Position numbers and translations under genes: made by a program
The notes under the pieces: model-generated
Seen by the model: the letters and a program-made list of their open reading frames with translations, nothing else
The model's database searches: none
Told to the model about the DNA's origin: nothing
Assembly (NCBI GenBank): GCA_001028815.1
Contig: LDJB01000001.1
Coordinates: 1,029,550-1,093,549, forward strand
Direction: 5' to 3'
Length of the DNA: 64,000 nt
From: Peptococcaceae bacterium 1109
GTDB taxonomy: Bacteria; Bacillota; Limnochordia; Darwinibacteriales; Darwinibacteriaceae
Shown here: positions 27,544 to 49,315 of the stretch, one piece after another
Layout of the letters: every line of letters starts with the position of its first letter
How positions within the stretch are numbered: position 1 is the stretch's first letter

Positions 27544-28791
27544 TTATCCAGCCGTTGGCATAATCCCAACGCTCCAATGGGCAAAGAGTTCTCTATTGTG
27601 CACGGCTACTTTGGCCAAATACGCTCGCGCCTTTTTCGGCTTGTGCTTGAACCGCAGATACTTCTTCTGGATCCAGCGTTGCAGATGCGCATTGATACTT
27701 TCCAGAACATCAGCCAAGACTGCTTTCCCATACTTCCCGTAATAGCTGAGCCAGCCCCTGATGACCGGGTTGTACCTGTCGGCAATGTCCTCAAGAGTCA
27801 CGTTGGGCGTTTTTAAAAGCGGCCAACGTCTTACCTCCTGCCTTATCCGCTTTTGAGCTTTCTGGCTTATGGCTGGCAAGAAGCTGGTAAACTCAACACC
27901 CTGCCTTCCCTTGGCTTTGCGTGGCATGAAGGTATACCCCAAGAACGTAAAACTCACGTTCTCGTGATTCCCCTTTCGATTGCTGTCTCTGCAGTAGACC
28001 ACTTTAGTCTTTTCGGGATGTAGTTCCAAACCACACTGTTTCAGTCGTTCCCCCAGCCTACCCAGGATCTCTTCAGCTTGGTCTTTACTGTAACAGTGAA
28101 TCACAGCATCATCCGCGTACCTGCAGAATTCATTTCGGGGAAACTCCCTTTCCATCCACCTGTCAAACGCATAATGCATGAAAAGGTTCGCAAGTAGTGG
28201 ACTTACGACCCCACCTTGCGGCACTCCCTTTGTCCGTGGGATTCTGTTCCCCTCCCGGTCTTCCATTGGAGCTATCAGCCATCGCTTGATGTACAGGATT
28301 TCCCATTTGGTATCGGTGTGCTTCGTTACCGCCCTCAGTAGCAACGCATGGTCAATGTTATCGAAAAGCCCCCGAATATCAAACTCCAGAACCCAGTTGT
28401 ACTTCCAACATCTGGTGCGAGTCACCTCTACTGCCTTGTGTGCTCCCCGTCCGGGGCGATATCCATAAGAGTTTTCCGAAAATATCGGGTCGATCTTCGG
28501 TTCCAGACTATTCCTTACCACCATCTGTGCTATGCGGTCGGCAATCGTTGGTATGCCTAACATCCGCGTCCCACCTGTGCTTTTGGGGATCTTCACTCCC
28601 ATGACTGGTGGGGGGAAGTAACACCCCGATGCCATCCTGTTCCACAGCTTGTACAGGTTATCTGCAAGGTTTTCCTCGAACTCCTGCATCGAAACATTGT
28701 CTATACCGGCACCACCTCGGTTAGCTTTGACAGCCTTGTAGGCTCTATACACCATCTCTTTGGTGATACCAAACGACTTCGTGTTAGCCAT
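27544..28791 (-). CDS. ltrA: Group II intron reverse transcriptase/maturase
   Basis: A 415-residue intron-encoded protein. The RT palm shows EFDIRGLFDNIDH, the KGVPQGGVVSPLLANL block and the catalytic YADD at residues 225-228. The C-terminal maturase (GIIM/X) domain reads RYNPVIRGWLSYYGKY. No HNH endonuclease domain follows, so the intron would prime from a nicked or replicating strand. The protein assists intron splicing and mobility. It begins about 530 nt into the intron, as expected for an ORF in domain IV, and appears complete. Confidence 0.95.
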   Translation of the reverse strand: MANTKSFGITKEMVYRAYKAVKANRGGAGIDNVSMQEFEENLADNLYKLWNRMASGCYFPPPVMGVKIPKSTGGTRMLGIPTIADRIAQMVVRNSLEPKIDPIFSENSYGYRPGRGAHKAVEVTRTRCWKYNWVLEFDIRGLFDNIDHALLLRAVTKHTDTKWEILYIKRWLIAPMEDREGNRIPRTKGVPQGGVVSPLLANLFMHYAFDRWMEREFPRNEFCRYADDAVIHCYSKDQAEEILGRLGERLKQCGLELHPEKTKVVYCRDSNRKGNHENVSFTFLGYTFMPRKAKGRQGVEFTSFLPAISQKAQKRIRQEVRRWPLLKTPNVTLEDIADRYNPVIRGWLSYYGKYGKAVLADVLESINAHLQRWIQKKYLRFKHKPKKARAYLAKVAVHNRELFAHWSVGIMPTAG

Positions 28792-30214: not shown

Positions 30215-30574
30215 CTACCTCCCCCCAGCCCTCACCCACTTTTCCCAGTTCTTCTTATCTTGCTCAGCCCAACGCTCAGAGCGTTCCCGTTCTTCATCCA
30301 TCTTCTTCTGTGTCCACTCCTGTCGCAGCCTCACAAACTCTTCCTGCGAAGTCCGTTCGCCGCTTGTCAACTCTTTCTTGATGCACTCGTACTCCACTGG
30401 ATAAACGCTTTGGAGTCCTTTAAAAAACATCGCCTCCACCGCGGACGATGGTCCCCGCCTCTTCATAATGCTCTCCAACAAGCATAGGTCTGCGATGTAA
30501 CGCCTATTCTCCCACTCCGTTTCCTTCAACCTGTCCCGCACAAACTCAGTAGCAATCCTCGCTAGATACTCCAT
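30215..30574 (-). CDS. Unknown charged protein under SAM riboswitch control
   Basis: A 119-residue soluble protein I do not recognise. The first half is helical (MEYLARIATEFVRDRLKETE; ADLCLLESIMKRRGPSSAVE) and the C-terminal 45 residues are a very charged Glu/Arg/Lys helix rich in Trp (RSERWAEQDKKNWEKW), likely coiled coil or nucleic-acid or protein binding. The start at 30574 has AAGGAGGG 6 nt upstream. It is the only gene directly behind the SAM-I riboswitch at 30595-30749, so its expression should rise when SAM is low. That would link it to methionine or SAM metabolism, or it may have displaced the original target gene. Confidence 0.75.
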   Translation of the reverse strand: MEYLARIATEFVRDRLKETEWENRRYIADLCLLESIMKRRGPSSAVEAMFFKGLQSVYPVEYECIKKELTSGERTSQEEFVRLRQEWTQKKMDEERERSERWAEQDKKNWEKWVRAGGR

Positions 30575-30594: not shown

Positions 30595-30749
30595 AAAAAA
30601 CGGCCTTCCCAGATAACCACACCAGGAAGGCCGAAATCACACACTCATCTCTCAGGCTCCTTCATCGGTTACCTGCAGGAATTAGCACCTTGCCTCATGG
30701 CAGGTTGCCGGGGTTCATAGGGCCAGTCCCTCCCCCACTCTGGATAAGC
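30595..30749 (-). ncRNA. SAM-I (S-box) riboswitch with terminator
   Basis: On the minus strand the aptamer runs from 30749 to about 30644 with the S-box landmarks CTTATCCAGAGTGG, GGAGGGACTGGCCC, ATGAACCCCGGCAACC, GGTGCTAATTCC and GCCTGAGAGATGAG; P1 pairs CTTATC with GATGAG. The expression platform is the hairpin CGGCCTTCC...GGGAAGGCCG followed by TTTTTT at 30595-30633. High SAM should favour termination before the downstream 119-residue protein gene. Confidence 0.95.
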
Positions 30750-30781
30750 TCACTATTCAATTGTCGGGAAATGCCACTTAC

Positions 30782-30875: not shown

Positions 30876-31949
30876 TTACGCGGGAATCACGTGCACCACC
30901 TGCGGTGCGAAGTACACGCCCACCTCATCGCCAACACTACGGATGCCCTTCTCAATTGGGGACGAAACAACCGCATGGAGATTGGTTTCCTGTACAATCA
31001 GGTCATACTCCACAACAGAGCCGAGGTAGACCACTCTGTTCACCACTCCCGTGGCGTACGCCTGTGCTTCTCCCAGGTGCACAGCTTCGGGGCGCAGCAC
31101 AAGACTTACTAGGGATCCCACAGGCAAGTTCTCTTCGTGGTCGATAGTGATCACCTTGCCCCACACCTTCACATCCAGCTTGCCTGGGGCCGAGCCCACC
31201 ACTTCTGCTTCCACGAAGTTCACCTGCCCGATAAAGTCCGCAACGAAACTTGTGCGAGGCCGGTTGTAGATTTCCCAAGGGGTGCCCATCTGCTCAATGC
31301 GGCCCTTGTTCATCACCACGATCCGGTCAGAGATGGCCATGGCTTCCCCTTGGTCGTGGGTTACGTAAACTGCTGTTATCCCCAGGTGCTGCTGGATCCG
31401 GCGGATCTCAAGGCGCATCTGTTCCCGCAGCTTTGCATCGAGGTTGGACAAGGGCTCGTCAAAAAGGAGCACCTTTGGTTCTGTGATGATGGCCCTTGCG
31501 AGGGCTACCCGCTGCTGCTGGCCTCCAGATAGCTGGTCAGGCATGCGCTTACCCAATCCTGCCAAGCCAACCAGTTCCAAGATGGAGTCGACCCTCTGGG
31601 CAATCTCTGCCTTAGGTATCTTCCTAAGTGACAAGCCAAACCCCACGTTATCTGCTACAGTCATGTGGGGGAAAATCGCATAGTTCTGGAACACCATCGA
31701 TGTATCCCGCTGGTCAGGTGTAAGGTTGGTAATATCCTTGTCGCCTAAGAAAACCTGCCCCGCGGTGGGGATTTCGAATCCTGCAATCATCCGCAGCGTA
31801 GTAGTCTTGCCGCAACCAGAAGGCCCTAGGAGGGTAACCAGCTCCCCTTCCTTAATCTCCAGGTTGATGCTATCCACCGCAATGACTTTCGCCTGGCGAT
31901 CGTCGGGACTGTCAAACTCCTTCCGCAAATTCTTAAGTGTAACTCCCAT
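30876..31949 (-). CDS. Ferric-iron-type ABC transporter ATPase (copy 1)
   Basis: A 357-residue ATPase of the FbpC/PotA group. Walker A is LLGPSGCGKTTTLRMIAG, the signature is QLSGGQQQRVALARAI, and Walker B is KVLLFDEPLSNLD, with the H-loop in VTHDQGEAMAI. The C-terminal 110 residues form a TOBE-like domain. It powers the double permease encoded upstream (gap 11 nt). Family members transport Fe3+, thiamine, polyamines or aminoethylphosphonate; the fused permease and COG1840-type binding protein favour iron(III), but the substrate is an inference. Confidence 0.9.
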   Translation of the reverse strand: MGVTLKNLRKEFDSPDDRQAKVIAVDSINLEIKEGELVTLLGPSGCGKTTTLRMIAGFEIPTAGQVFLGDKDITNLTPDQRDTSMVFQNYAIFPHMTVADNVGFGLSLRKIPKAEIAQRVDSILELVGLAGLGKRMPDQLSGGQQQRVALARAIITEPKVLLFDEPLSNLDAKLREQMRLEIRRIQQHLGITAVYVTHDQGEAMAISDRIVVMNKGRIEQMGTPWEIYNRPRTSFVADFIGQVNFVEAEVVGSAPGKLDVKVWGKVITIDHEENLPVGSLVSLVLRPEAVHLGEAQAYATGVVNRVVYLGSVVEYDLIVQETNLHAVVSSPIEKGIRSVGDEVGVYFAPQVVHVIPA

Positions 31950-31960
31950 GGTATACCCTC

Positions 31961-33658
31961 CTAAAATCGCGTTTCAAATCTGACGCCAAACAGGCGGTCT
32001 ACAATCAAGCGTATCACAATGATCGCCACCACGATGATCCCCACAAGCAGCAAACTAAACGCTGCCGCCGCCCCGAGGCGCCCAGAGCCGACTTGGTTCA
32101 GGATCTGGACTGTCATGAGGTTCCAGTCTGCAGAAACCAAGAATATCGCCGCACTAATGGCTGTCATCGCCCGGACAAAGGCAAATACCAGCCCGCTGAA
32201 GAACGCCGGGGAGATTAGGGGCAAAGTAATGCGGCGGAACACGGTCTGAGAGTTAGCTCCCAGGTTCGTTGCGGCTTCCTCAATGCCCGGATCGATTTGG
32301 TGCAAGGCAGCGATCCCGTTTTGAATTCCCACAGGCACATACCGGAACACGAAGTTAGCCACCAAGATGGTGAGCGTGCCTGTAAGCAAGAACGGCCGTT
32401 GGTTAAACGCCAAGATGTACCCAATACCAATTACTGTACCTGGCAAGGCAAAGCTCAGCATGGAGGTAAACTCCATCGCAGACCGGCCCAAGAAACGCTT
32501 CCGCACTACTAAGAAGGCAATGAACATGCCGATGAGCCCGCTGATGGGCGTCGAGGTGACTGCCACAGTTAATGTATCAAGGATGGTTTCAAAGCCCACG
32601 TCCAGGACATAGGTAAAGTTCCGCAAGGTAAAGCCATAGTCAAAGCCCCAAGCCTTGGAGAAGGCACCCACCACAATGACACCGTAAAAGCCCAAGACTA
32701 TAACACAGATGGCCATGGCAAAACCGAACAGTACCCAGCGCATTACCGGCCCCACTGCTTTAACCGTTGAGCGGGTAGGCTTCCCAGATACTGTGACATA
32801 GCTCTTCCTGCTTACCCAATACTTCTGCAAAACGAAGGCAGTGATGGATGGGATGAGCAGGGTAACTGCGAGAGCCGCGCCGCCAGGGAGATCGTACATT
32901 CCTGTAATCTGGAGGTAGGCCTGCACTGCGAGCGTGGGAAAGGCACTGCCAGCAAGGACCAGGGGGTTCCCGAAGTCCGCGAGAGATTCAATAAACACCA
33001 CTAGCATCGCGCTGGCAATCCCTGGTACCGCAAGAGGCAACGTGATCTTCCGAAACACTGTCCACCGGCTCGCACCAAGGTCAAAGGCAGCATCCTCTAG
33101 TGCAGGGTTAATTGCCTCTAAAACACCCTTTAGCGACAGATATGCCACGGGGAAAAACGTCACCGTCTGCGCAAGCAAGAGCCCCCGGATCCCGTAGATG
33201 GGGAAGTTTCGGATGCCGAAGAGATTATACGTAATAAGTCCGTTATTGCCAAAGAGCAGCAAGATGCTGAGTGAGCTTACAAAAGGCGGCGAGATGATGG
33301 GTATGATGGCGATCATATCGATGAGGCGCTTAAAGGGAATATTCACCCGCGTCACCGTATAAGCCAAGATAAAACCAACCACCACTGAAGTCAGCGCAGA
33401 AAGCGCCCCCATAAGCAGGCTGTTAGTGAAAGCACGCCGCATATACCAGCTCTTAAAGAGATTGGTGTAAATCTCAAATGGCGAGCCATCGCTAGCTACG
33501 CTCATGTCCACCACTTTAATCAGTGGCAGGATAATGAAGATGCCAAGCATTGCGAAGATCAGCAAGATAGAGATGAGCAGCCACGGTTCCCGAAGCAGCC
33601 GTCCCAGATCTTGCATGACTGGGCGGAGTCTGCGCCCCGCTGCCGGTGTTGAAAGCAA
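31961..33658 (-). CDS. Iron-type ABC transporter permease, fused double domain (copy 1)
   Basis: A 565-residue FbpB/ThiP-like permease with about twelve membrane segments in two homologous halves. Each half has an EAA loop: ALEDAAFDLGASRWTVFRKI and IEEAATNLGANSQTVFRRI. The two halves form the whole pore by themselves, explaining why only one permease gene is present. The TTG at 33658 has GAGGAGGGG 5 nt upstream. It follows the binding protein gene after 50 nt that contain a hairpin. Confidence 0.92.
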   Translation of the reverse strand: MLSTPAAGRRLRPVMQDLGRLLREPWLLISILLIFAMLGIFIILPLIKVVDMSVASDGSPFEIYTNLFKSWYMRRAFTNSLLMGALSALTSVVVGFILAYTVTRVNIPFKRLIDMIAIIPIISPPFVSSLSILLLFGNNGLITYNLFGIRNFPIYGIRGLLLAQTVTFFPVAYLSLKGVLEAINPALEDAAFDLGASRWTVFRKITLPLAVPGIASAMLVVFIESLADFGNPLVLAGSAFPTLAVQAYLQITGMYDLPGGAALAVTLLIPSITAFVLQKYWVSRKSYVTVSGKPTRSTVKAVGPVMRWVLFGFAMAICVIVLGFYGVIVVGAFSKAWGFDYGFTLRNFTYVLDVGFETILDTLTVAVTSTPISGLIGMFIAFLVVRKRFLGRSAMEFTSMLSFALPGTVIGIGYILAFNQRPFLLTGTLTILVANFVFRYVPVGIQNGIAALHQIDPGIEEAATNLGANSQTVFRRITLPLISPAFFSGLVFAFVRAMTAISAAIFLVSADWNLMTVQILNQVGSGRLGAAAAFSLLLVGIIVVAIIVIRLIVDRLFGVRFETRF

Positions 33659-33679
33659 GTTAACCCCTCCTCAACTTGG

Positions 33680-33705
33680 AAAAAGGGGCCCGAAGGCCCC
33701 CTTTT
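33680..33705 (-). terminator. Intercistronic hairpin/attenuator
   Basis: On the minus strand AAAAGGGGGCC-ttc-GGGCCCCTTTTT lies between the binding protein and permease genes. Such partial terminators raise binding protein levels above those of the membrane components. Confidence 0.75.
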
Positions 33706-33708
33706 AGA

Positions 33709-34707
33709 TTACTGGCCCCGCAGAACCTCGTCGATCCACTTGTTGACCAGGTACTCCCGGTTGTCGCCAGCCCAGAGCGCATCGTAGTCAATGGTGGGAA
33801 TGTCGCTGAATGCAGGCAGACCTTCACCGGTGGATGCTTCTGGATGGACTGGGAAGAAATAAGTCTTCAGCTCACTGAGCTTGTTTTGGCCTTCCACGGA
33901 GATGAGCCAGTCGACCAGAGCTTGAGCAGCCTCGATGTTGGGCGCACCCTTAATGATGGAAACGGCCGGTGCTTCGTAGCCTACACCTTCCTTGGGGAAG
34001 ATGAGCTTCAGCGGATAGCCCTCATCCATAAGCTTCAGGAATGCCGGGGTAAACTGGATGGCAACTCCAGCTTGTCCAATGGCCACTGCCTGGGAAGGCG
34101 CGGTTCCGCTTTGAGTGTACGACTGGATGTTCTTGTGGAGTTCCTTCAGGTAATCAAAGGCTTCGTCCTCGCCCCATGCCAGAACCATAGAAGCCACGAG
34201 GTTGTAGGCGGTCCCGGAAGACTGGGGTGTGGGCATCTGGATCTCGCCTCTAAACTCTGGTTTCAGCAGGTCGTACCAGGATTCAGGCATTTCAATGCCT
34301 GCCCGCTCTGCCCAACCAGTGTGGATGGCTACGCCCATGGGGTTCATGTAGAAGCTTGTCCAATAGCCCTCTGGATCATAGAACTTCGCATCGAGAGCGG
34401 CTGCGTTAGGGGACATATAAGGCTGGGTCAAACCTCTATCCTTAGCCAGGACGTGGTTCTCCGAAGGAGCGCCTAGCCATACATCTGCTTGAGGATTGTT
34501 CTTCTCTGCTTCCATCCGGGCCAAAGCCGGGCCAGAAGAAAGGAACACAAACCGCACGTCAATGCCAGTGGACTGTGTAAAGGCATTCAAGAGAGCACGG
34601 GCGTTTTCCTCGTCAACACTGGAATACACCGTCAAAGTGTTCGCCGATGCGCTAACTGCTAAGCTTAGAACAAGTAAAACTGCCACTACCAAGATACTTC
34701 TTTTCAA
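33709..34707 (-). CDS. Iron(III)-type solute-binding protein (copy 1)
   Basis: A 332-residue extracellular binding protein of the FbpA/AfuA (COG1840) type. Signal peptide MKRSILVVAVLLVLSLAVSA with cleavage near SAN. The mature start TLTVYSSVDEENARALLNAF is characteristic, as is the PQADVWLGAPSENH block. No lipobox is seen. It is the first gene of a binding protein, double permease and ATPase operon and has a long, structured leader. Iron is the most likely ligand, but other COG1840 members bind phosphonates, phosphosugars or thiamine. Confidence 0.9.
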   Translation of the reverse strand: MKRSILVVAVLLVLSLAVSASANTLTVYSSVDEENARALLNAFTQSTGIDVRFVFLSSGPALARMEAEKNNPQADVWLGAPSENHVLAKDRGLTQPYMSPNAAALDAKFYDPEGYWTSFYMNPMGVAIHTGWAERAGIEMPESWYDLLKPEFRGEIQMPTPQSSGTAYNLVASMVLAWGEDEAFDYLKELHKNIQSYTQSGTAPSQAVAIGQAGVAIQFTPAFLKLMDEGYPLKLIFPKEGVGYEAPAVSIIKGAPNIEAAQALVDWLISVEGQNKLSELKTYFFPVHPEASTGEGLPAFSDIPTIDYDALWAGDNREYLVNKWIDEVLRGQ

Positions 34708-34949
34708 GGTTTTCCCTCCCGAAGATTTTGATTTTGCAGCTGAACTAACCTAAGGCTCCTTCTAAGCGCACCACCCCTTTCAAGACTTCTTTTAGTGATA
34801 AAAAAATAGGCAGCTTCAAGAAACACCGACAAAGTCAGTATTGTCCAAAAGCAGCCTACTCCTTCAGCAACCTGCTTTTCCGCTCACTGGGGAAAAGCCT
34901 GTTCCAAACTAGTAGTGCACCAGTTCTATTTCACTGTGATTATATAGTA
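34708..34949 (-). promoter_or_regulatory. Structured 5' leader with terminator, candidate riboswitch
   Basis: Between the promoter and the start codon lie about 235 nt. On the minus strand a hairpin GCTTTTCC...GGAAAAGC (34898-34874) precedes a longer hairpin TAGGC-GCTT...AAGC-GCCTA followed by seven T (34859-34800), a likely intrinsic terminator. About 90 nt follow before the ATG. This is the architecture of an attenuator or riboswitch. I cannot match it to a known class: T-box, TPP, FMN, cobalamin and S-box landmarks are absent. Confidence 0.6.
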
Positions 34950-34973
34950 ACACATGAGAAGAATCCTTGTCAA
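34944..34973 (-). promoter_or_regulatory. Promoter of iron-type operon 1
   Basis: On the minus strand TTGACA (34973-34968), 18 bp, then TACTAT (34949-34944) overlapping a TATAAT five bases further. Confidence 0.65.
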
Positions 34974-34978
34974 TTATG

Positions 34979-35008
34979 AATAAAAAGGCGCTAGCTGGTG
35001 CGGCGCCG
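34979..35008 (-). terminator. Terminator of DUF2294 operon
   Basis: GGCGC and GCGCC pair around the end of the last DUF2294 gene and are followed by TTTTTATTC on the minus strand. The stop codon lies within the loop. Confidence 0.65.
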
Positions 35009-35383
35009 TGCCTGGGGCCGGAACATCGCCTCAAGGTTGGTATCTAAAGCACATACGATGAGTTTTTCCGAATCTTGTACACTGATATCCGTATACAGCG
35101 TGCGGATAGATGCCCCTGTGACGCTGTGGAGGAGCGCCTTAAAGGCCTCTTGATTGCTCTTCAGCAGCGTTTCCCGGAGGCGTTTAATCAGGTCCACGCT
35201 TTCCGGATTGTCCCGTACCTGCTCCTCTGCAGGGGTAAGGATGCCTCGCTGCCTTATGATAATCATGTCCTGCACGATAAAGGTGTTAATCTCCTTGGGG
35301 CCCCTGCCGAAGTACTCCCGTTCGAACTTCATCACAGCACTACCGATTTTCGATTCCAGTTCTCCCTTTGTGCGAAAATCCAT
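34991..35383 (-). CDS. DUF2294-family protein (copy 1)
   Basis: A 130-residue DUF2294 protein. The family pattern is clear: KGELESKIGSAVMKFEREYF, then GRGPKEINTFIVQDMIIIRQ, RGILTPAEEQ and the late SIRTLYTDISVQDSEKLIVC. The function of the family is unknown. The ATG at 35383 is preferred to an upstream GTG because a GAGG site lies 6 nt before it. It follows the sensor-like protein gene after 8 nt and ends the three-gene unit. A second, diverged DUF2294 gene starts the unit. Confidence 0.85.
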   Translation of the reverse strand: MDFRTKGELESKIGSAVMKFEREYFGRGPKEINTFIVQDMIIIRQRGILTPAEEQVRDNPESVDLIKRLRETLLKSNQEAFKALLHSVTGASIRTLYTDISVQDSEKLIVCALDTNLEAMFRPQARRRTS

Positions 35384-35391
35384 GCTATCCC

Positions 35392-36648
35392 TCACTCTCC
35401 CCTGCGCCACGCCGCTCGGGCCCAGAGCGACACAACATTGGCAGGCGGCGGGTTTAGGCCCACATCCGAAATGCTGCTTTCAATCAATCCCACGACGGCA
35501 AAGCGGTAAAGGTAGCGCTGGACCCTCTCAGGGGTCCACCCTAAGTCTCTGGCATACTGCGTCACAGTGCGCTGATCATCGATAGCTTCCCACAGGTAGA
35601 GCTCATCAGCGGTGAGGTCCAAGCGGACTTGTTCCTCATCAAAGCCATGCTGAGACTTTTTCGCCACGTAGCGAAAATCTGGGACGTATTGCTCAATGAA
35701 CCGCAGGGAATGCACACGGCGGGCGGCGTAGAGCAAAACCGCATGCCACGACAAAGTCTGCAGCTCGTCTTCGAGGGGCTTCATCTTCGGGTTGAACTTA
35801 AACGTCCCCTCTTCCAGAAGAAACAGTGCATAAAAGGCCCTGCGCCCTCTGTACTCACGGAATGCCGCTCCCCGGATGTTTCCGTTCTGGACATAGACCA
35901 GGCCTAAATCGGAGCGGGACATAATCGCAAGCATCCCTGTCTGCCGGGTAAAGCGGAGCATCATGAGGAGCATAGACAGAGGATAGAGTTCTAGGTTTCC
36001 TTCCCAGATCATGGCGTGGGTGATGGCACCCCCCACAAGCTGGCGGAAGCGCAGACGCATTTCCTCTAAGACCCGGGCCATATGCTGAACTTCCCGGGGA
36101 CCGGAAATCTCAATGTGCCGGTCAAACTGACCAGCCAAAAGGCCAGACCCTACAGAGGCAAGGCGCCTTAAAGGGCGGAGCTCAAAGCTTACAACCAAAG
36201 CGGTGAACATGCACAGGCCTACAGCTGCCACTGTGAGAAGCCGCGAGACGGCCGTGCGCACTTCCCCATATACCTCTAAGATGGGCGAAGCGATAGTAAC
36301 CTTCAGCCGCTCCCCTGCCACGGTCAGCTCATAACTCTCAACCGTCAAGGTCTGACTTGAGGACAGAGACCACAACGGATGAAGCAGTCCGTGGGCGTCG
36401 TAGTAATCCAGCTGGGTGATTTGCCATTCATCGAGGCTGCCGTCAAACTGGCTGAGGTAATCAAGAACGGTCATGTCAGGAGAGGAAAACAACCCCCGGC
36501 GCTCGGCAAGCCACTCAAGCATGCCCCGCTCGATCTGGGCAGTGACCACGTGCTCGACGCGGGCATCGATTACAGCTCCCACAACCCATATGGAGAGCAA
36601 AGCGGCAACTAAGACGTAAAGCCCTGTCCTGCCCGCAACGGAGCGCAC
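35392..36648 (-). CDS. Membrane sensor with HAMP and PATAN (DUF4388)-like domains
   Basis: A 418-residue two-pass membrane protein. TM1 is at residues 8-27, an extracellular sensor spans 28-135, and TM2 lies about 136-157 (LLTVAAVGLCMFTALVVSF). A HAMP-like linker follows (ELRPLRRLASVGSGLLAGQF). Residues 215-310 resemble the PATAN/DUF4388 module (GNLELYPLSMLLMMLRFTRQ, GLVYVQNGNIRGAAF, FYALFLLEEGTFKF). The C-terminus (TADELYLWEAIDDQRTVTQ) looks like a winged helix. There is no kinase or methyl-accepting domain. It is sandwiched between two DUF2294 genes, which are its likely partners. Confidence 0.8.
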   Translation of the reverse strand: MRSVAGRTGLYVLVAALLSIWVVGAVIDARVEHVVTAQIERGMLEWLAERRGLFSSPDMTVLDYLSQFDGSLDEWQITQLDYYDAHGLLHPLWSLSSSQTLTVESYELTVAGERLKVTIASPILEVYGEVRTAVSRLLTVAAVGLCMFTALVVSFELRPLRRLASVGSGLLAGQFDRHIEISGPREVQHMARVLEEMRLRFRQLVGGAITHAMIWEGNLELYPLSMLLMMLRFTRQTGMLAIMSRSDLGLVYVQNGNIRGAAFREYRGRRAFYALFLLEEGTFKFNPKMKPLEDELQTLSWHAVLLYAARRVHSLRFIEQYVPDFRYVAKKSQHGFDEEQVRLDLTADELYLWEAIDDQRTVTQYARDLGWTPERVQRYLYRFAVVGLIESSISDVGLNPPPANVVSLWARAAWRRGE

Positions 36649-36659
36649 GGCATCACATC

Positions 36660-37058
36660 CTACCCGTCACTTCGCGCAACAGGACAGTAGATGACCAGTT
36701 CATCTGCTTCCGGCAGGAGGCTCACTCCCACACCCAAAGCCCGGGCACCTAGCCTTTCCTGGATGCTCTGCATGATTACGGGCTGCAAAGCCCGCCACTG
36801 CTGTTCTAAAAGGTCGCGGATCATTTTCGCCCCTTCAGGATCGTCCCGCACCAAACAGCGTTCTGCTTTGCTGAGCACCCCGCGGGCGCGGTAAACCACC
36901 AGGTCATCTAGGAGGTAGACCTGAGCTGACTCAGGGACCCGTTCAGTATACCTCTCCTGAAGCTGAGATAGATCGCGACATAGATAAAAGGTTGTGGGGT
37001 CACCGGGGAATCCCCGTACTACAGATTGCATCCTGTTCATCCTCTCGTACATGAGCAA
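36660..37058 (-). CDS. Diverged DUF2294-like protein (copy 2)
   Basis: A protein of up to 132 residues that shares the DUF2294 pattern in its second half (VYLLDDLVVYRARGVLSKAE, then VIMQSIQERLGARALGVGVS and ADELVIYC). The N-terminal third does not match the family well. Met codons at 37058, 37040 and 37031 are all possible starts; ribosome sites are weak, so the exact start is uncertain. It is the first gene of the DUF2294-sensor-DUF2294 unit, 11 nt before the sensor gene. Confidence 0.72.
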   Translation of the reverse strand: MLMYERMNRMQSVVRGFPGDPTTFYLCRDLSQLQERYTERVPESAQVYLLDDLVVYRARGVLSKAERCLVRDDPEGAKMIRDLLEQQWRALQPVIMQSIQERLGARALGVGVSLLPEADELVIYCPVARSDG

Positions 37059-37195: not shown

Positions 37196-37344
37196 CTCGA
37201 CCTGCATCCCACGGGGGATCGATCTAAAGCGCGCTACCTTGGGGTGGTAGCGGTCGCATGACTCCCGCACGCGGGGATAGACCAAACCGTTGGTGTTCAA
37301 TCTCGCTCACCTGTGCGTCTCCCCCGCACACGCGGGGATCACCC
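37196..37344. CRISPR. Remnant type I-E-like CRISPR repeats
   Basis: Two degenerate repeats with the type I-E core, CCCGCACGCGGGGAT (about 37255-37283) and CCCCCGCACACGCGGGGAT (about 37316-37344), are exactly 61 bp apart, the I-E period of 29-bp repeat plus 32-bp spacer. A weaker third match, CCCACGGGGGAT, lies 59 bp further left (about 37196-37224). No cas genes are in the window. The minus-strand frame through it shows the SPRAG/DPRVCGG peptides that mis-called ORFs over I-E arrays usually have. Confidence 0.5.
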
Positions 37345-37947
37345 CACATCGCCTGCAGTCGACTGCGCAACGGAGACCAAGTCAAGGGTGTTACCGTGAC
37401 TCTCGCTGGACCTCGTCTTCCACAGACTTGGGCGACCGCGCCTTCTATCCATATCCAGGCCATCCGTTGCAGAACGTTCTCTTGAAGTGCGGGTCTTGAG
37501 TGCCTTCCATTCTCGCGAGAGCCAGGTTCATCCGAAAACGGAGATCCGCACAGGCGAAACTTAAGATGCGATACCTTCCAGAGGCAGCAAAGGGGGTGAA
37601 TAGCCCGCGCCTGACCGGTTGGGAGAGCGCTTGAATGGCATTCAAGGGTCCATCCCACCCCCGCCAAAAATGATCTCCTGCCCGTCTTTGGCCGCCCCAC
37701 GCCTTCCCCACAGGACCGATGGCACCCTGACTCTTCATCAGGGGCCGATGGTCTGAGTCCTCCTTGTCCCAGCCCTTCCAGCCAGCAAAACACTCATAAC
37801 CAGTACCAGAGGAGTGTCGGCTCCATCGCCGTCCCCAAGGGCTCCTTTCCAGGATCTCAACGGAATGCGCCTTTGTCAGTCTTTAATAATTCCTCTGCAA
37901 AAACTCTGACATCGCAAAAAGCCCAGAAAGATCCCAATAGATCCAAG
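37345..37947. other. Gene-free stretch
   Basis: No credible gene: open frames here lack ribosome sites and protein-like composition. It may be the remains of a CRISPR leader or cas region. Confidence 0.45.
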
Positions 37948-43162: not shown

Positions 43163-44272
43163 TCATGCACCCTTCTCCAACTCCCCGAAGACTTCTTTAT
43201 CCCCGTCGGTGAGGAGGCCGTAGACAATCCGGTCGGCCCCAACGCTCATTTTCACCCTGTCTTTGAGCTTAGGAACAGAACTGTAGAGAGGGTTAGGAAT
43301 CTCAAACATCAGGGCAAGGCCCTGATCAGAGACGACCTCGCCCCGAGCAACAGATCCCAAGGGCTCTAGATAGTCCACTACGCCGCTAATTTGGTTCTCC
43401 CCCGCGGCCGAATCATAGAGCACATCTTGAGGCCTGATGGAGAGCCACACCTCTGCCCCCACCTTCACGTCCTGCCGCTTCTGCACAACCAGGTCACAAT
43501 CCTTAACCTTTACCACAAACCTATCTCCATCAGCGTAGCGCACTACTCCACGGAGCATGGTGGTCTTACCGATGAAGTTGGCCACGAATGCAGAACTTGG
43601 CGCGCCGTAGATGTCCATAGGGGACCCTACCTGCATCAGTTTGGCGGTCTTCATCACCGCGATGCGGTCGGAGATGGACATAGCCTCTTCTTGGTCGTGG
43701 GTGACGAAAACAGTGGTAATATTGAGTTCCTGCTGGATCTGCCTGATCTGCTTGCGAATGCTCACCCGCAGGGCCGCATCGAGGTTGCTGAGAGGTTCAT
43801 CAAGGAGCAGCACTTGCGGCCGGATAACAAGAGCCCGGGCAAGGGCCACCCGCTGCAGCTGGCCGCCGCTCAGTTGGCTGGGCATTCGGTGGCCGTAGCC
43901 AGTAAGCCCCACCAGTTCGAGGACCTCATTGATGCGCCGATCCCGCTCAGGGTTCTCCACCTTGCGGAGCTTGAGCCCGTAGGCCACGTTCGCCGCGACA
44001 GACATGGTGGGAAACACCGCGTAGTCCTGGAACACAATCCCAATGTTCCGCTTCTGAGGGGGGACATCGTTCATTAACTGGCCGTTGATCCAGATCTCGC
44101 CGGATGTGCATTTTTCAAAGCCTGCGAGCATGCGCAGGGTCGTTGTCTTACCACACCCAGAAGGGCCTAAGAGACAGAGGCATTCACCTGCTTCAACTTC
44201 AAGGTTTAGACTGTCAACGGCAACCACAGGACCGAACTTCTTGGTAACGTTCTTTATCTGAATCATTGCCAT
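43163..44272 (-). CDS. Ferric-iron-type ABC transporter ATPase (copy 2)
   Basis: A 369-residue FbpC/PotA-type ATPase, paralogous to the one at 30876-31949. Walker A LLGPSGCGKTTTLRMLAG, signature QLSGGQLQRVALARAL, Walker B QVLLLDEPLSNLDAAL and H-loop VTHDQEEAMSI are intact; a TOBE-type C-terminal domain follows. The gene starts directly (0 nt gap) after the permease gene. Substrate is inferred from the operon type only. Confidence 0.9.
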   Translation of the reverse strand: MAMIQIKNVTKKFGPVVAVDSLNLEVEAGECLCLLGPSGCGKTTTLRMLAGFEKCTSGEIWINGQLMNDVPPQKRNIGIVFQDYAVFPTMSVAANVAYGLKLRKVENPERDRRINEVLELVGLTGYGHRMPSQLSGGQLQRVALARALVIRPQVLLLDEPLSNLDAALRVSIRKQIRQIQQELNITTVFVTHDQEEAMSISDRIAVMKTAKLMQVGSPMDIYGAPSSAFVANFIGKTTMLRGVVRYADGDRFVVKVKDCDLVVQKRQDVKVGAEVWLSIRPQDVLYDSAAGENQISGVVDYLEPLGSVARGEVVSDQGLALMFEIPNPLYSSVPKLKDRVKMSVGADRIVYGLLTDGDKEVFGELEKGA

Positions 44273-45937
44273 TTATATCCCTCCCCGGTCTTTTGTCAGC
44301 CGATTGGCGATGCCGTTCCCCACTGCGATGATCACAATCAGGAGGATTCCCATCGCGGACCCTCTCGCGATTTGCCCCTCGGAGACATAGTAGTAAATGT
44401 AGATCGGTATGGTCCGCCAGCCTGGCGGGTACAAGATGAGCGACGCTCCCAGCTCTGTGATGAGCTTAATGGACAGGATCACGCCAGAGGCCACAATTGT
44501 AGGCTTGAGCTGGGGCAGAATAACATCCTTGAAGGTTTTTGATCTGGAAGCTCCCAGGCTCCATGATGCCTCTTCCAAGCTCTTGTCGATGCGGGCAAAC
44601 CCCGCGCTCAACACTCTGATGGCGTGGGGCATCCGCCTGATGGAGATGGCAATTAAAAGCACCAGCACAGTGCCACCCAGGTCAAATCCCCCGATTTTTA
44701 CCGCTCCCCAAGCCCGGGTAATGGAAAGCCCGATTACAACGCCTGGGATAATAAAGGGCAGCATGGTGATGAAGTCAAACCAACGCATATACGGGACATC
44801 TCTGTTCATCTGCCCGAAGGTGATGGAGAGGAACAAGGTAAAGGGCATTGCCCCTGCCATAAGGATCAACGAGTTCCGAATAGCAACAGAGTCGGTAAAC
44901 GCAGTCTTGTAGTTGTCTAGGGTAAAGGCGTTCGGCAGCCATTTCGTGGTCCACACCGTCCCAAAAGAGCTTACCACGATGGTAGCGTAGGGCAGCAGGA
45001 ACAGGATGGTCACCAAAGCTAAGAACACAGTGGCCGCGCGCCTCAGCCCAGGCAAGTCATAGGTAATCGCCCGGGTCCTGAAAGAGTGCTTCAACTCAGT
45101 ACGCTTTAAGAGGCGGTTTACCACTAGCATCATGAGGCAGGCCATGAGAATAATCCACGCGCTGAACACCACGGGGATGCGGTCATCCCCCAAGAAGCTA
45201 ACGAAGTTAGAGTAAATCTCAACTGGAAGTACCCGGTAGTTCCCTCCAACGAGCAAGGGAGCACCAATATCCCCAAGGGATGTAAGGAAGACCAGGGTAC
45301 CTCCCATTAAGATGTGGGGTAGGATGTAAGGCAAGACAACCTTCCCCATGGTTCCCCAAAAGGATTCACCTAGGGAATGGGCTGCTTCTTCCAGATGGGC
45401 GGGGACGGACTGCAAGCCGGCAACGATCACCAAAAGCGAATAGGGCATTAAGTGCAGAACCTGAGTTATGACCAGTCCCGGCAGCCCGTAGATGGAGAAA
45501 CTGGGAACGCCCAGCATGTTCAAAAAGCGCGTTAAGATGCCCGTCCTTCCCAAGAGAAGGATGGTGGCAAAGCTAGAGATAAATGGCGGAGTAATTAGGG
45601 GCACCGTAAGGAGTACCGTCCAGCCCATCCCTAGAGGCACCCTGAGCTTATTAACAGCAATGGCCACAGGGATCGCGACGGCCAAAGAAACGAAGGTTGT
45701 GAGCAGAGCGAGACGTACGGAGTTCCAAGTAATACGCATCATATACTGCAAAAGGTCCACCGGTAAAGACTCGCTGCCCGCGATCAACCCCAGCGTCTCC
45801 AGGATTACCTTACCAAGGGGGACTACTAAGAACAGCACAACAAACGCGGTCGCGACAACATAAATGGGAATCAGCCAGTTAAACCCCGTCCGCGGCGTTT
45901 CGTAAACCTGCTTCTTCACCTCTACTTCGAGAGCCAT
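44273..45937 (-). CDS. Iron-type ABC transporter permease, fused double domain (copy 2)
   Basis: A 554-residue double permease, paralogous to copy 1. The N-terminal 20 residues are cytoplasmic, then about twelve membrane segments. EAA loops: HLEEAAHSLGESFWGTMGKV and SLEEASWSLGASRSKTFKDV. The ATG at 45937 has GGAGGA upstream. A small hairpin at 45972-45987 separates it from the binding protein gene, as in copy 1. Confidence 0.92.
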   Translation of the reverse strand: MALEVEVKKQVYETPRTGFNWLIPIYVVATAFVVLFLVVPLGKVILETLGLIAGSESLPVDLLQYMMRITWNSVRLALLTTFVSLAVAIPVAIAVNKLRVPLGMGWTVLLTVPLITPPFISSFATILLLGRTGILTRFLNMLGVPSFSIYGLPGLVITQVLHLMPYSLLVIVAGLQSVPAHLEEAAHSLGESFWGTMGKVVLPYILPHILMGGTLVFLTSLGDIGAPLLVGGNYRVLPVEIYSNFVSFLGDDRIPVVFSAWIILMACLMMLVVNRLLKRTELKHSFRTRAITYDLPGLRRAATVFLALVTILFLLPYATIVVSSFGTVWTTKWLPNAFTLDNYKTAFTDSVAIRNSLILMAGAMPFTLFLSITFGQMNRDVPYMRWFDFITMLPFIIPGVVIGLSITRAWGAVKIGGFDLGGTVLVLLIAISIRRMPHAIRVLSAGFARIDKSLEEASWSLGASRSKTFKDVILPQLKPTIVASGVILSIKLITELGASLILYPPGWRTIPIYIYYYVSEGQIARGSAMGILLIVIIAVGNGIANRLTKDRGGI

Positions 45938-45971
45938 GTTGTCCTCCTCTAAACCTGTGATGGAAAGGGGT

Positions 45972-45987
45972 GAGGGGATGCCCCCTC
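45972..45987 (-). terminator. Intercistronic hairpin
   Basis: GAGGGG-ATGC-CCCCTC between the binding protein and permease genes; a short GC stem followed by ACCCCTTTCC on the minus strand. Likely RNA stabiliser or attenuator. Confidence 0.5.
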
Positions 45988-46003
45988 CCCCCTCGAATCC
46001 TCA

Positions 46004-47044
46004 TTACCGCTGGCGGATGTAGCCTTCGAACTTCTCCTGGATGATCCCCCGTGAAGCTTCAGCCTGCTCAGGATCGGGCAGCAGCAGAACGTCGATCTGC
46101 TTAGCCATGTTTTCCAGTGCTACGAAGTTATCTGCATCCAGAACGCCTGGGCGGATGGGTGTGTAGGGATACTCAGCACCAATGCGCTGCATATCCTCGC
46201 CCAACAAGAACTCGATGAACTTCTTAGCCAGTTCAGGGTTCTTAGCACCGTTCACGACGCCAACAGCGTTATCCTGTACCATAGCGCCGTCCCTGGGGAA
46301 GATAAACTCCACAGGCCAGCCCTGCATCTGATACTCAAACACGGGCCGGTTGTTGACGATTCCGATGGCAAACTCACCGCGATTGACGAGGTTGTAGGTG
46401 TTGGATGTGGAATCGGAGTACAACCCGATGTTCGCGTTGATGCCATCCCAGAGCTCCCAAACTTCATCTGGGCCATAGGCCTGGATGGTGGCCAAGACGT
46501 TATTCATGGCCGTAGAGGACAGCAGTGGGTTGGGGCTCACGATTTGGCCTTTATAAATCGGGTTGGTAAGATCTTTGTAGCTGGTTGGCGCTGGCAGGTT
46601 CAGCTCGGCGAGGCGTTCAGTGTTTACCATGATACCGCTGAAGAGCACTGCCCAGCTGAAGTAGTAGTTTTCCGGATCCCGTGTGGGAAGCATGCCGCTG
46701 CCCAGCGGGATTTCTGCGGGAATTCCAATGTCCCCGAGATCAACTGGCTGCAAGATGCCCTGGGACTTTGCGAAGGCATATTCCGTGGAGCCGCCAGAAT
46801 GCATGATGTCGGCCCGGGGGTTGTCCCGTTCAGCGATCAAGCGGGCGATCATAGCTTCAGTGCCGCCAGGATTGATGACATGCACGGTAACGCCTGGGTT
46901 CCTAGCTTCGAACTCTTGCACCATCCGCTCTGCATAGCCTGCAAAGATGGTGCTGTATACCACCAGTTCCTCTGCTGCAGCAACAGCTGTCAAGAGTGTT
47001 GACATGAGCAATACAACTAGCAAAGCTACTGAAATCCGTTTCAT
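46004..47044 (-). CDS. Iron(III)-type solute-binding protein (copy 2)
   Basis: A 346-residue FbpA/AfuA-type binding protein. Signal peptide MKRISVALLVVLLMSTLLTA with cleavage near AAAEE. The start of the mature protein, ELVVYSTIFAGYAERMVQEF, and NPRADIMHSGGSTEYAF match the family. It shares layout but only limited sequence with copy 1, so the two systems are probably not recent duplicates and may have different ligands. Confidence 0.88.
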   Translation of the reverse strand: MKRISVALLVVLLMSTLLTAVAAAEELVVYSTIFAGYAERMVQEFEARNPGVTVHVINPGGTEAMIARLIAERDNPRADIMHSGGSTEYAFAKSQGILQPVDLGDIGIPAEIPLGSGMLPTRDPENYYFSWAVLFSGIMVNTERLAELNLPAPTSYKDLTNPIYKGQIVSPNPLLSSTAMNNVLATIQAYGPDEVWELWDGINANIGLYSDSTSNTYNLVNRGEFAIGIVNNRPVFEYQMQGWPVEFIFPRDGAMVQDNAVGVVNGAKNPELAKKFIEFLLGEDMQRIGAEYPYTPIRPGVLDADNFVALENMAKQIDVLLLPDPEQAEASRGIIQEKFEGYIRQR

Positions 47045-47275
47045 TAAGATCCCCCTTCATTATATATAGTGAAATCGCCGTTCAAGCAATGTTGCTGCTC
47101 CTGACCTCACCTCACTCTCATAAATCATCAGTATAACTTAACACCGTACCTATTTCATTCTGGTTTTTTACCATATCTCCTGCAATCACCTCTAGCTGGG
47201 AAAAGATTCAACTATTCTGACCCTTTCTCCTATTTGTCCCTCAGCCGAAGGCAACGGGGTTGAGGTTCTCACACT
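47045..47275 (-). other. Promoter region of iron-type operon 2
   Basis: No gene. On the minus strand TTAAGTTATACTGATG and a TATATATAATGAAGG stretch just before the start codon are AT-rich promoter-like elements. AAGGGGGATC gives the ribosome site. Unlike copy 1, I see no leader terminator. Confidence 0.45.
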
Positions 47276-47298
47276 AAAAAGGGGAGCCTGAGCCCCCC
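47276..47298 (-). terminator. Terminator of SnoaL-like gene
   Basis: On the minus strand GGGGGGC-TCAG-GCTCCCC is followed by TTTTTAG, right after the stop codon. Confidence 0.75.
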
Positions 47299-47300
47299 TA

Positions 47301-47684
47301 CTAGCTGTGCAACTCGATTCGATACGAGTCAATTGCCTTTAGCTTAGCGTTCTTGCCGAAACTGCCGAACTTGTACACATCGCAGAACTCCACCTGGACA
47401 CCGTCTGCAAACATCAGTGAGCCGTGCACTGCCGCGGTGTTACCGTGGGTGATCACATCCCTGAGGCGGATTTCCTCCAGCCCCTCCTGGGTTAGGCCGT
47501 AGAGTGCTGCAGCCGCCCCCTCCTTCCCTTGCAGCTGTCTTTCTCCCACGATGTTCAGCACCACATCGTCAGCGAGGTTATCCAGTACAAACCTTTGGTC
47601 ACCGTGTACGATGGCCTCATACACCTTTATCAGCTGGAGCTTCTTGGGCGCGTTGCCGCAGTGGTCAGGATACGTGATGCGCAT
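47301..47684 (-). CDS. SnoaL/NTF2-like small protein
   Basis: A 127-residue protein of the cystatin-like NTF2/SnoaL fold: an N-terminal helix pair (KLQLIKVYEAIVHGDQRFVL), then strands DDVVLNIVGE, GKEGAAAALYGL, TAAVHGSLMFADG and VQVEFCDVYKFG. Members bind small molecules or act as isomerases, but no catalytic residues are assured here. The ATG at 47684 is chosen because GGGAAGGTGG lies upstream. It stands alone between the chemoreceptor gene and iron-type operon 2. Confidence 0.75.
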   Translation of the reverse strand: MRITYPDHCGNAPKKLQLIKVYEAIVHGDQRFVLDNLADDVVLNIVGERQLQGKEGAAAALYGLTQEGLEEIRLRDVITHGNTAAVHGSLMFADGVQVEFCDVYKFGSFGKNAKLKAIDSYRIELHS

Positions 47685-47728
47685 GCTTCCACCTTCCCTC
47701 GATAGAGTACAAAGGCCGCTCACAACCT

Positions 47729-49315
47729 TTATACTTTAAACTTCGCTATCACGCCCTGAAGTTCCCCCACCATTCCCGCAACTGTCTCCGCCATACCCGC
47801 AATCTCTGTCATGGATGCTGCTTGCTCTTGGGCAGCGGCTGCCAGGCCTTGGCTGGTGGCATCCATTGCGTTGGTGGAGGCGGCAATTCCGTTGATCCTC
47901 GCAGCAATGCCTTCGATGTTCCCCAAGATCGATTCAAAGCTGGACCGGGTTTGGTTCAGAGCCTTCTGCCCTTCTGCCACTTGTGCCTGGGTTTCCCCAA
48001 TTGTAGCCACAGCCCGGGACACTTCATGCATGAGGGAGCTGTTCATCTGGGCGATCTTGGTAACCGAATCCTGAGTTTGTTCCGCCAGCTTCCTCACTTC
48101 CTCCGCAACCACCGCAAAGCCTCGCCCCTGTTCCCCAGCGCGTGCTGCTTCGATGGCTGCATTGAGGGCTAAGAGGTTTGTCTGTTCCGCGACTTCGGAG
48201 ATGATCTCCAAAACCGTGCCCATGCTCTCCGCAGCCTGACAAACCAGTGATACAGCCCCTTGGGTCTCCCGGGAGCTCTGAACAATACGGTCCATGGACC
48301 TGACGGTGAGCTCCATCTCCCTCTGTCCGCTGCCCGCAAGTTCCTTAACGTCCTGAGCGCTTTCAGCCATTTCAGCCATCTGGCTGTTCACCGTGGAAAT
48401 GCCCTCACTGAACTCGCCAATAGACGACGCCACCTCCTGGAGGGTAGCAGAGTTCTCCTCGCTGGCTGCAAGGAGAGTCTCCCCCGTTTCTGCGGCAGTG
48501 GTTGTCATCTGCTGAAGCGAGTGGACGATGGCCCTTAGGCTTTCGGCGAGGTCCTTGAAGGCTCGCGCTAGCATGCCGATTTCATCTTCTCTCTCCCCGG
48601 CCCGAGCAGCATCATCCACATCTGTCAGATCCCCCTCAGCAATGCGCACTGCGTGCTTGGCCGCGAGGGCAATGGGCTGCAGCACGCCTCGGGAGAGGAT
48701 GAAGTACAGCACCATGGTAAGGAACACGCTCACGATCAGGGAAAGGGCGAGCACGCCTCCTCGAAAGGCTGCGACCGTCTCATGGATGATCTTGGGGGAA
48801 GCGCCCGTGTTAAGCATGCCTACAGCGTTACCTCCCTCATCCAAAAGCGGCCGGTAAGCTGCTTGGTAGCGGTTTCCCGCCACCTCTGCCTCGCCGTAGT
48901 AGGGCTCTTGCTTTCCTAAGACTTGTTCAACTACGTAAGGGGCAGCCTCGGTACCCACCACTCGTTCGCCATCGCTGCGGACGGTGGTGGCCACTCGCAT
49001 TCCCGCCCTGAATATGGTTACAGTGTTCCCTGTAAGGCTGGCAAGCCAGTCAACCAGTTCCTCATCGTTGTTGAGGAGATGTTCACCTTTATAGAGCAGG
49101 GGGCCTTCTCCCCGCCACGCTCCTGGGAGCATCTCGTCCAGGAGTTCATACATCAAGCTGATATCAGAGCGAACCTTGGTCAAAGCCATGGTTTGAGTCT
49201 GTTCGTCAATAATAAACTGAGAGACGATGAAGATCACGCCTACAAGTACAAAGATAGCACCGACAACTGGGATGAGCACCTTCCACCTCAGGGACATACG
49301 TTTCAACAACACCAC
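47729..49315 (-). CDS. Methyl-accepting chemotaxis protein with single Cache domain
   Basis: A chemoreceptor of about 522-528 residues. TM1 is at residues 12-32 and TM2 near 187-210. The extracellular part fits a single-Cache (sCache_3-like) fold, with [20 protein letters not shown] and [25 protein letters not shown] domain follows, then the long helical signalling domain whose tip reads [20 protein letters not shown]. There are several near-start codons (GTG 49315 to TTG 49303) after AGGAG. No other chemotaxis gene is in the window. Ligand unknown. Confidence 0.93.

Follow-up and report, generated by a model that had tools for sequence, protein, structure and literature searches.

A two-pass HAMP-PATAN receptor flanked by two MpsC (DUF2294) proteins recurs with AfuABC-type importers and a structured leader RNA

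Three genes in the order MpsC-A, receptor, MpsC-B, encoded head to tail on the minus strand of a stretch of 64,000 nucleotides (the window), constitute a real and repeatedly conserved unit. This trio is best explained as the signalling half of a nutrient-uptake locus. Searches with receptor alignments identified strong homologues in 12 genomes from six families of the phylum, at each of which the receptor is accompanied by at least one MpsC gene and by importer genes.

The preliminary description of this DNA had placed two DUF2294 genes on either side of a two-pass receptor, in agreement with the coordinates (Table 1), the Pfam matches and the two hydrophobic segments of the receptor (residues 9-27 and 137-155). 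DUF2294 carries the current Pfam name MpsC (PF10057), and both small proteins pass its gathering score (105.3 and 40 bits, cut-off 23) with most of the domain matched. The receptor passes DUF4388/PATAN (PF14332; E 1.3e-16, 61.2 bits, cut-off 25, profile positions 1-119 of 122) and has a sub-threshold Pfam match to HAMP (E 6.8e-5). No kinase, cyclase or MCP domain was found in it by Pfam, with HisKA, His_kinase and HATPase likewise unmatched, which agrees with the earlier claim of a PATAN/DUF4388 module and no kinase, cyclase or methyl-accepting output. Its layout is TM1, an extracytoplasmic domain of ~100 residues (a helix and four strands), TM2, HAMP, DUF4388/PATAN and a winged-helix-like tail. 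The AF2 model of the receptor was built from two sequences (mean pLDDT 50.5), and its usable part comprises residues 40-120.

MpsC-A is separated from the receptor gene by 11 nt. MpsC-B follows the receptor gene after 8 nt if it begins at the ATG at 35383, which is its likely start, or overlaps it by 19 nt from the GTG at 35410. The compact spacing of 8-11 nt described earlier thus holds with the ATG start. PADLOC returned no match for any of the three proteins, on which ground a defence-system reading of the trio was rejected, and no relatives were found in viral collections. Upstream of the trio (37200-37345) are two or three decayed CRISPR-like repeats (CCCGCACGCGGGGAT), ~60 nt apart, with no array left.

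Table 1. Positions of the trio, the leader RNA and the importer genes in the window.
Feature	Position	Strand	Basis
MpsC-A, divergent MpsC/DUF2294 protein, 132 aa	36660..37058	-	Pfam PF10057, E 4.7e-10
Receptor, HAMP-DUF4388/PATAN, 418 aa	35392..36648	-	Pfam, hydrophobic segments, alignment of relatives, partial AF2 model
MpsC-B, canonical MpsC/DUF2294 protein with GRGP motif	34991..35410	-	Pfam, E 2.4e-30; AF2
Promoter-like site, TTGACA-18-TACTAT with TG before the second hexamer	34944..34973	-	Consensus scan
Structured leader RNA of the importer operon	34800..34911	-	Covariation, model matches, fold z -5.8
Substrate-binding protein, AfuA-like	33709..34707	-	Pfam SBP_bac_6; PDB 4r72, E 3.7e-63
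Permease, AfuB/PhnU2-like double permease	31961..33658	-	Pfam BPD_transp_1; TIGR03262, E 2.8e-90, below its cut-off
Importer ATPase	30876..31949	-	Pfam ABC_tran and TOBE_2

Relatives of the same genus, family and class, with receptors 75%, ~50% and 30% identical, respectively, keep the order of the trio, which is therefore not due to chance. Start and stop codons of the trio touch or overlap in these relatives. Both MpsC genes are visible in 10 of the 12 loci, the remaining two lying on short or incompletely called contigs. Three arrangements were observed. MpsC-A/receptor/MpsC-B adjoins the importer in the window and in L009, L095 and L007. The order MpsC-A/SBP2/receptor/SBP/permease/ATPase/MpsC-B is present in L083, L085 and L086, and probably in L113 and L114, and MpsC-B/MpsC-A/SBP2/receptor is divergent from the importer in L084, L115 and L116. 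The gene for SBP2, an extra AfuA-like binding protein, overlaps the receptor gene in all loci of the latter two arrangements (8 of 12). No response regulator gene was seen in the 12 loci. The gene-neighbour check of the link between DUF2294 and such sensors thus found it to recur in 12 genomes of six families. Of the self-contained signalling unit of unknown type that had been suggested, the recurrent signalling-type unit stands; its self-contained nature was rejected, because an AfuABC-type importer lies alongside at every locus (12 of 12). A gene for a secreted-looking protein of 349 aa lies upstream of MpsC-A in L083, L085, L113 and L114, and occurs also in L131; Pfam does not match the protein, which has an HExxH-type motif (in L131, VAHEVGHHVH).

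The receptor domain and the A-type MpsC are close to exclusive to this set of genes. Of the 398 genomes sampled from the phylum, five contain full-length DUF4388, and all five have a strong A-type MpsC and the importer. Strong A-type matches were confined to genomes with the receptor-importer system, the sole further one being a congener's gene broken by unread bases near a contig end. Within the class (73 genomes), DUF4388 occurs in five genomes, four of which carry the trio; the fifth, G043, encodes a lone soluble relative without MpsC. Hypergeometric co-occurrence probabilities, which ignore kinship, were 5e-6 and 7e-11, the latter for the 398-genome phylum set.

In the window the genes for binding protein, permease and ATPase lie directly downstream of the trio (30876-34707). 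The binding protein is ~41% identical to AfuA over 251 columns, and its best PDB relatives include AfuA (4r72-4r75) and the pyridoxal-phosphate binder P5PA. SBP_bac_6 proteins are often called iron transport proteins; given these structural relatives, iron uptake is not favoured. AfuA binds hexose and heptose phosphates, contacting the phosphate through S37 and T150 and the sugar through H205, D206 and E229 (PMC4546632). The phosphate contacts are kept as S and T in the window protein. In general, the system's binding proteins have AfuA as their best match and retain its residues on the phosphate side. The sugar contacts correspond to P, A and E in the window and its class; among 16 binding proteins from the other lineages, 15 have H, D and E and one has Q, D and E. 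Thus, the importer belongs to the same family as AfuABC and keeps S37, T150 and E229, but differs in H205 and D206, which are essential in AfuA; no receptor trio of this kind has been described for AfuABC. Retention of S37 and T150 with changes at H205 and D206 makes another phosphorylated substrate likely, and judging from these residues the window importer probably takes up a phosphorylated compound that is not simply a hexose phosphate. Phosphoheptose-isomerase-like SIS genes and one half of a transketolase, close by in L007 and L095, would fit a sugar-phosphate substrate. No SIS or transketolase neighbour was found near the importer of the window.

Several other features of the window were noted. 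A SAM riboswitch (RF00162, 83 bits; 30642-30750, minus strand) lies just after the ATPase gene and apparently precedes 30215-30574 and further genes, and a group II intron reverse transcriptase/maturase (RVT_1 and GIIM) is encoded at 27544-28791. A second SBP_bac_6 importer (ATPase, permease and binding protein; 43163-49315) is preceded by a SnoaL-like gene and by a gene for a single-Cache chemoreceptor (47729-49315), a dedicated receptor for another importer.

The leader RNA of the importer operon is located between MpsC-B and the binding protein gene. It comprises a hairpin (34854-34911), in which two small internal loops flank a short helix, and after it an intrinsic terminator hairpin with a U-tract. 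The promoter-like site is upstream of the terminator; its hexamers are kept in L009 and less clear in L095. Since the terminator is downstream of this site and within the structured leader, we read it as an importer attenuator and not as a terminator shared by the trio, as had been assumed. Compensatory changes were already visible in the first three genomes compared, and a model made from these three gave a clear match in L084 and weak matches in L083, L113, L114 and L116, each just before MpsC-A. After realignment the leader was present in 11 of the 12 loci, the exception being L094; no leader was found in this most distant trio locus (L094/L007). Changes on both sides were seen in 22 of 31 pairs of the leader including the terminator, and in 14 of the 16 pairs of the hairpin part. 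The leader had a covariation score of 0.574; shuffled alignments gave 0.291, and slid ones did not exceed 0.239. No Rfam family exceeded its gathering threshold at the leader. Identity with a known riboswitch was thus rejected, and likenesses to T-box, c-di-GMP and other elements were dropped by eye.

The two MpsC proteins of the window are only 25% identical to each other. In a tree of 79 MpsC proteins the A copies form a clade of their own (support 100/99), to which neither the B copies nor any other MpsC belong. In the alignment they have lost the GRGP motif and carry a PExDE motif of their own near the C-terminus, whereas the B copies keep the canonical motif. We infer from these sequences that MpsC-A and MpsC-B may form a degenerate-plus-active pair. 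With a mean pI of 7.6, canonical MpsC proteins are only mildly basic; MpsC-A is acidic. The AF2 model of MpsC-B (pLDDT 86) consists of a helix, two strands, three helices and two strands. Foldseek gave no match to the MpsC model at E<=0.001, and the best Z score obtained with VIA (7.6) is inside the uninformative range of that tool. A recurrent but weak likeness to TRAPP, BcsD and H-NOX was not used. A sequence search found no solved MpsC structure.

MpsC/DUF2294 is far more widespread than the receptor, occurring in 118 of the 398 sampled genomes (~30%). In 11 of 30 loci accC, purE/purK, PEPC or sbtA lies within 1.5 kb of a canonical MpsC gene, which suggests a role of MpsC in inorganic-carbon metabolism outside the receptor-importer system. 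Genes for bicarbonate-using enzymes or transporters (accC, purE/purK, PEPC, sbtA, P-II) adjoin canonical mpsC in L087, L101, L102, L056 and L058, and such bicarbonate-linked neighbours were noted further in L061, L062, L076, L081 and L082. The neighbours are transporters, with SbtA, DASS and CitMHS among the types, in L087, L090, L059, L071, L075 and L102. Divergent MpsC clades adjoin MCP-CheW genes or Zn-alcohol dehydrogenases, and MpsC may partner other HAMP receptors too. MCP and CheW genes stand beside divergent MpsC genes in L092, L093 and L097. The genome of the window has a third, shortened MpsC gene (L098, contig C3, 5616-5894; 93 aa), which matches only profile positions 2-45; in L099, from a congener, a full-length MpsC gene lies by the same Zn-alcohol dehydrogenase gene.

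The leader is also found at MpsC loci lacking the receptor. Model R2, trained on the receptor-importer system only, gave matches at E<=0.01 in 13 of the 39 MpsC loci outside that system, against none in 37 control loci. Part of these matches could be ordinary terminators, and a hairpin-only model (R3) was therefore built from the same 11 loci. R3 still recognised a leader upstream of sbtA (L058 and L102), of mpsC-accC (L062) and of the mpsC/accC operon (L058), with E 4e-5 to 1e-3. Control loci totalling 119 kb contained no match to it at E<=1, nor was a leader detected by it at the divergent MpsC clades beside MCPs or Zn-alcohol dehydrogenases. Once these leaders were added, double changes were present in 16 of 16 hairpin pairs, in an alignment fitted to the model. 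The motif CCAGYYGYAANGTAAGCCAA, allowing up to 2 mismatches, occurs in 10 of 39 MpsC loci, 0 of 37 controls and 0 of 16 divergent-clade loci; note that it was read off some of the MpsC loci tested, so that only its absence elsewhere is informative. Several leader copies begin 6-8 nt after the mpsC stop codon and precede the next gene, in the order regulator, attenuator, target.

Parts of this system resemble known ones. HptA binds glucose 6-phosphate (G6P), upon which its contact on HptS shifts and the movement reaches the HptS HAMP domain (PMC8774646). Common to HptA-HptS-HptR and the receptor-importer system are an AfuA/HptA-type binding protein, a two-pass HAMP receptor and adjacent sugar-phosphate uptake genes. 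The binding protein gene is coupled to the receptor gene in eight loci, where the overlap of SBP2 and receptor genes is as expected of an HptA-HptS-like binding-protein-coupled receptor; the window has only the importer's own binding protein. In contrast to HptASR, the new system lacks a histidine kinase and a response regulator gene, its output consists of PATAN and two MpsC proteins, and uptake is by an ABC importer instead of UhpT. As a receptor it represents a new form of nutrient sensing coupled to a binding protein. PATAN proteins are believed to work through protein contacts, such as those of PixE with PilB1 (PMC7690835). The receptor shares with the cyanobacterial PATAN-REC proteins PixE, PixG and LsiR the use of PATAN as an output or docking module, but here PATAN is fused to a membrane receptor, without a REC domain or a type IV pilus link. 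The small proteins belong to the same family as MpsC of the S. aureus MpsABC bicarbonate transporter operon; in contrast to that operon, no MpsA (NuoL-like) or MpsB is encoded alongside at the loci, and an AfuABC-type importer adjoins instead.

The form of the leader recalls transcription attenuation. BglG/LicT antiterminators act with RAT hairpins, in which, as in PyrR attenuation, a hairpin with two internal loops and a short helix between them lies ahead of a terminator. The leader resembles these elements in its hairpin form and in the order of regulator gene, attenuator and target gene at several MpsC loci. It differs in that the CAT/PRD and PyrR domains are absent (no Pfam match to the CAT RNA-binding domain in any trio protein), in that RNA binding by MpsC is putative, and in that overlap of the leader hairpin with the terminator is visible only by way of the linker.

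We tentatively propose, as a possible rather than a probable scheme, that an organophosphate-sensing receptor controls the importer through PATAN, the MpsC pair and the leader attenuator. Outside the cell the receptor would sense a binding protein loaded with substrate, or else it would respond to the importer's state; the protein sensed would be the dedicated SBP2 in eight loci and probably the importer's own binding protein in the window. HAMP would pass the signal to the PATAN module, a putative docking surface for the MpsC-A/MpsC-B pair. MpsC-B, released or re-arranged, would then favour read-through of the leader terminator, so that in the window the importer, and in eight other loci MpsC-A, SBP2 and receptor, would be expressed more strongly. 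Such a system would work in the manner of HptA-HptS-HptR, with PATAN, the MpsC pair and the attenuator replacing histidine kinase and response regulator. That MpsC acts on the leader is a similarly tentative inference. We regard it as rather doubtful that MpsC/DUF2294 is a new family of RNA-binding antiterminators which the receptor controls via PATAN without phosphorylation: the mildly basic charge of MpsC and the acidity of MpsC-A count against direct RNA binding, as the model without a clear structural match counts against the MpsC-RNA reading. The absence of the leader from L094/L007 and from the divergent MpsC clades counts against the best explanation, as does the DUF4388 protein of G043 without MpsC. 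The L007 receptor has almost no extracytoplasmic domain, and therefore ligand sensing by the receptor is not universal.

Other explanations distribute the same parts differently. The leader might itself be a riboswitch or metabolite-sensing attenuator with MpsC operons in its regulon, the receptor and MpsC acting elsewhere, for instance on importer activity. Speaking for this reading are the compactness of the RNA, a hairpin with two internal loops that carries its own terminator, its conservation at loci with unlike MpsC neighbours, its position directly before sbtA, and the proximity of 11 of 30 MpsC loci to bicarbonate enzymes and transporters, which makes a common small ligand conceivable. 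We consider it about as likely as action of MpsC on the leader. Against it stands that one RNA would then be shared by bicarbonate and organophosphate loci, and that the common denominator found is the MpsC gene. Moreover, the leader was unseen away from MpsC loci in small controls, the genome-wide search being that with the narrower model R1 in 51 relatives. Direct control of the importer ATPase or gating by PATAN and the MpsC pair would be consistent with the frequent location of MpsC genes beside transporters (SbtA, DASS, CitMHS) and with the action of the PATAN protein PixE on a motor ATPase. However, some neighbours of MpsC are soluble carboxylases (accC, purK, PEPC), for which gating is needless, and the leader RNA indicates control at the level of expression; we consider this mode of action improbable.

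Equally improbable is that the receptor is a membrane-bound transcription factor whose PATAN relays the HAMP signal to a DNA-binding tail, with MpsC as an accessory. The winged-helix-like tail is conserved in all homologues, and the likeness seen in the preliminary description persists weakly, through matches to PadR (E 9e-4) and HVO_A0114 (E 2.4e-3) in relatives and to 1uly (E 0.56). DNA binding by the tail, also envisaged there, is not supported, the matches being weak and the wHTH-like region having a net charge of -4 in the window. Furthermore, conservation is poor in the putative recognition helix, inspection by eye revealed no operator common to the window group, and a separate LuxR-type regulator is present at the Halanaerobiia-type loci, at two of three by profile and at the third by position and likeness. 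This LuxR-type DNA-binding protein, encoded after the receptor in L084, L115 and L116, could be the output there instead. The divergent promoter region upstream of the SBP gene in these three loci contains repeated AT-rich motifs, GTTTAAAC near AAAAGTATAA, which are possibly operators of the LuxR-type protein. Finally, receptor, MpsC and importer might travel together as a mobile nutrient island without functional contact, as its patchy occurrence in the class (4 of 73 genomes) might indicate. This is very improbable, since the set stays together despite rearranged gene order and since DUF4388 and A-type MpsC are exclusive to the receptor-importer system.

In the literature searched, DUF2294 and DUF4388 are mentioned in passing and the receptor-MpsC-importer arrangement is not described; the phrases tried brought up no bicarbonate or sugar-phosphate riboswitch there. 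If receptor, PATAN and MpsC feed an attenuator, this would be an output route of HAMP receptors undescribed in that literature; a categorically new output would require that antitermination does depend on MpsC. PATAN/DUF4388 gains a likely function in the phylum, in which the full-length domain hardly seems to occur outside the receptor-importer system. For the MpsC family, the association of the leader RNA with canonical MpsC genes, including those at bicarbonate-linked loci, provides a first concrete and testable handle on its role.
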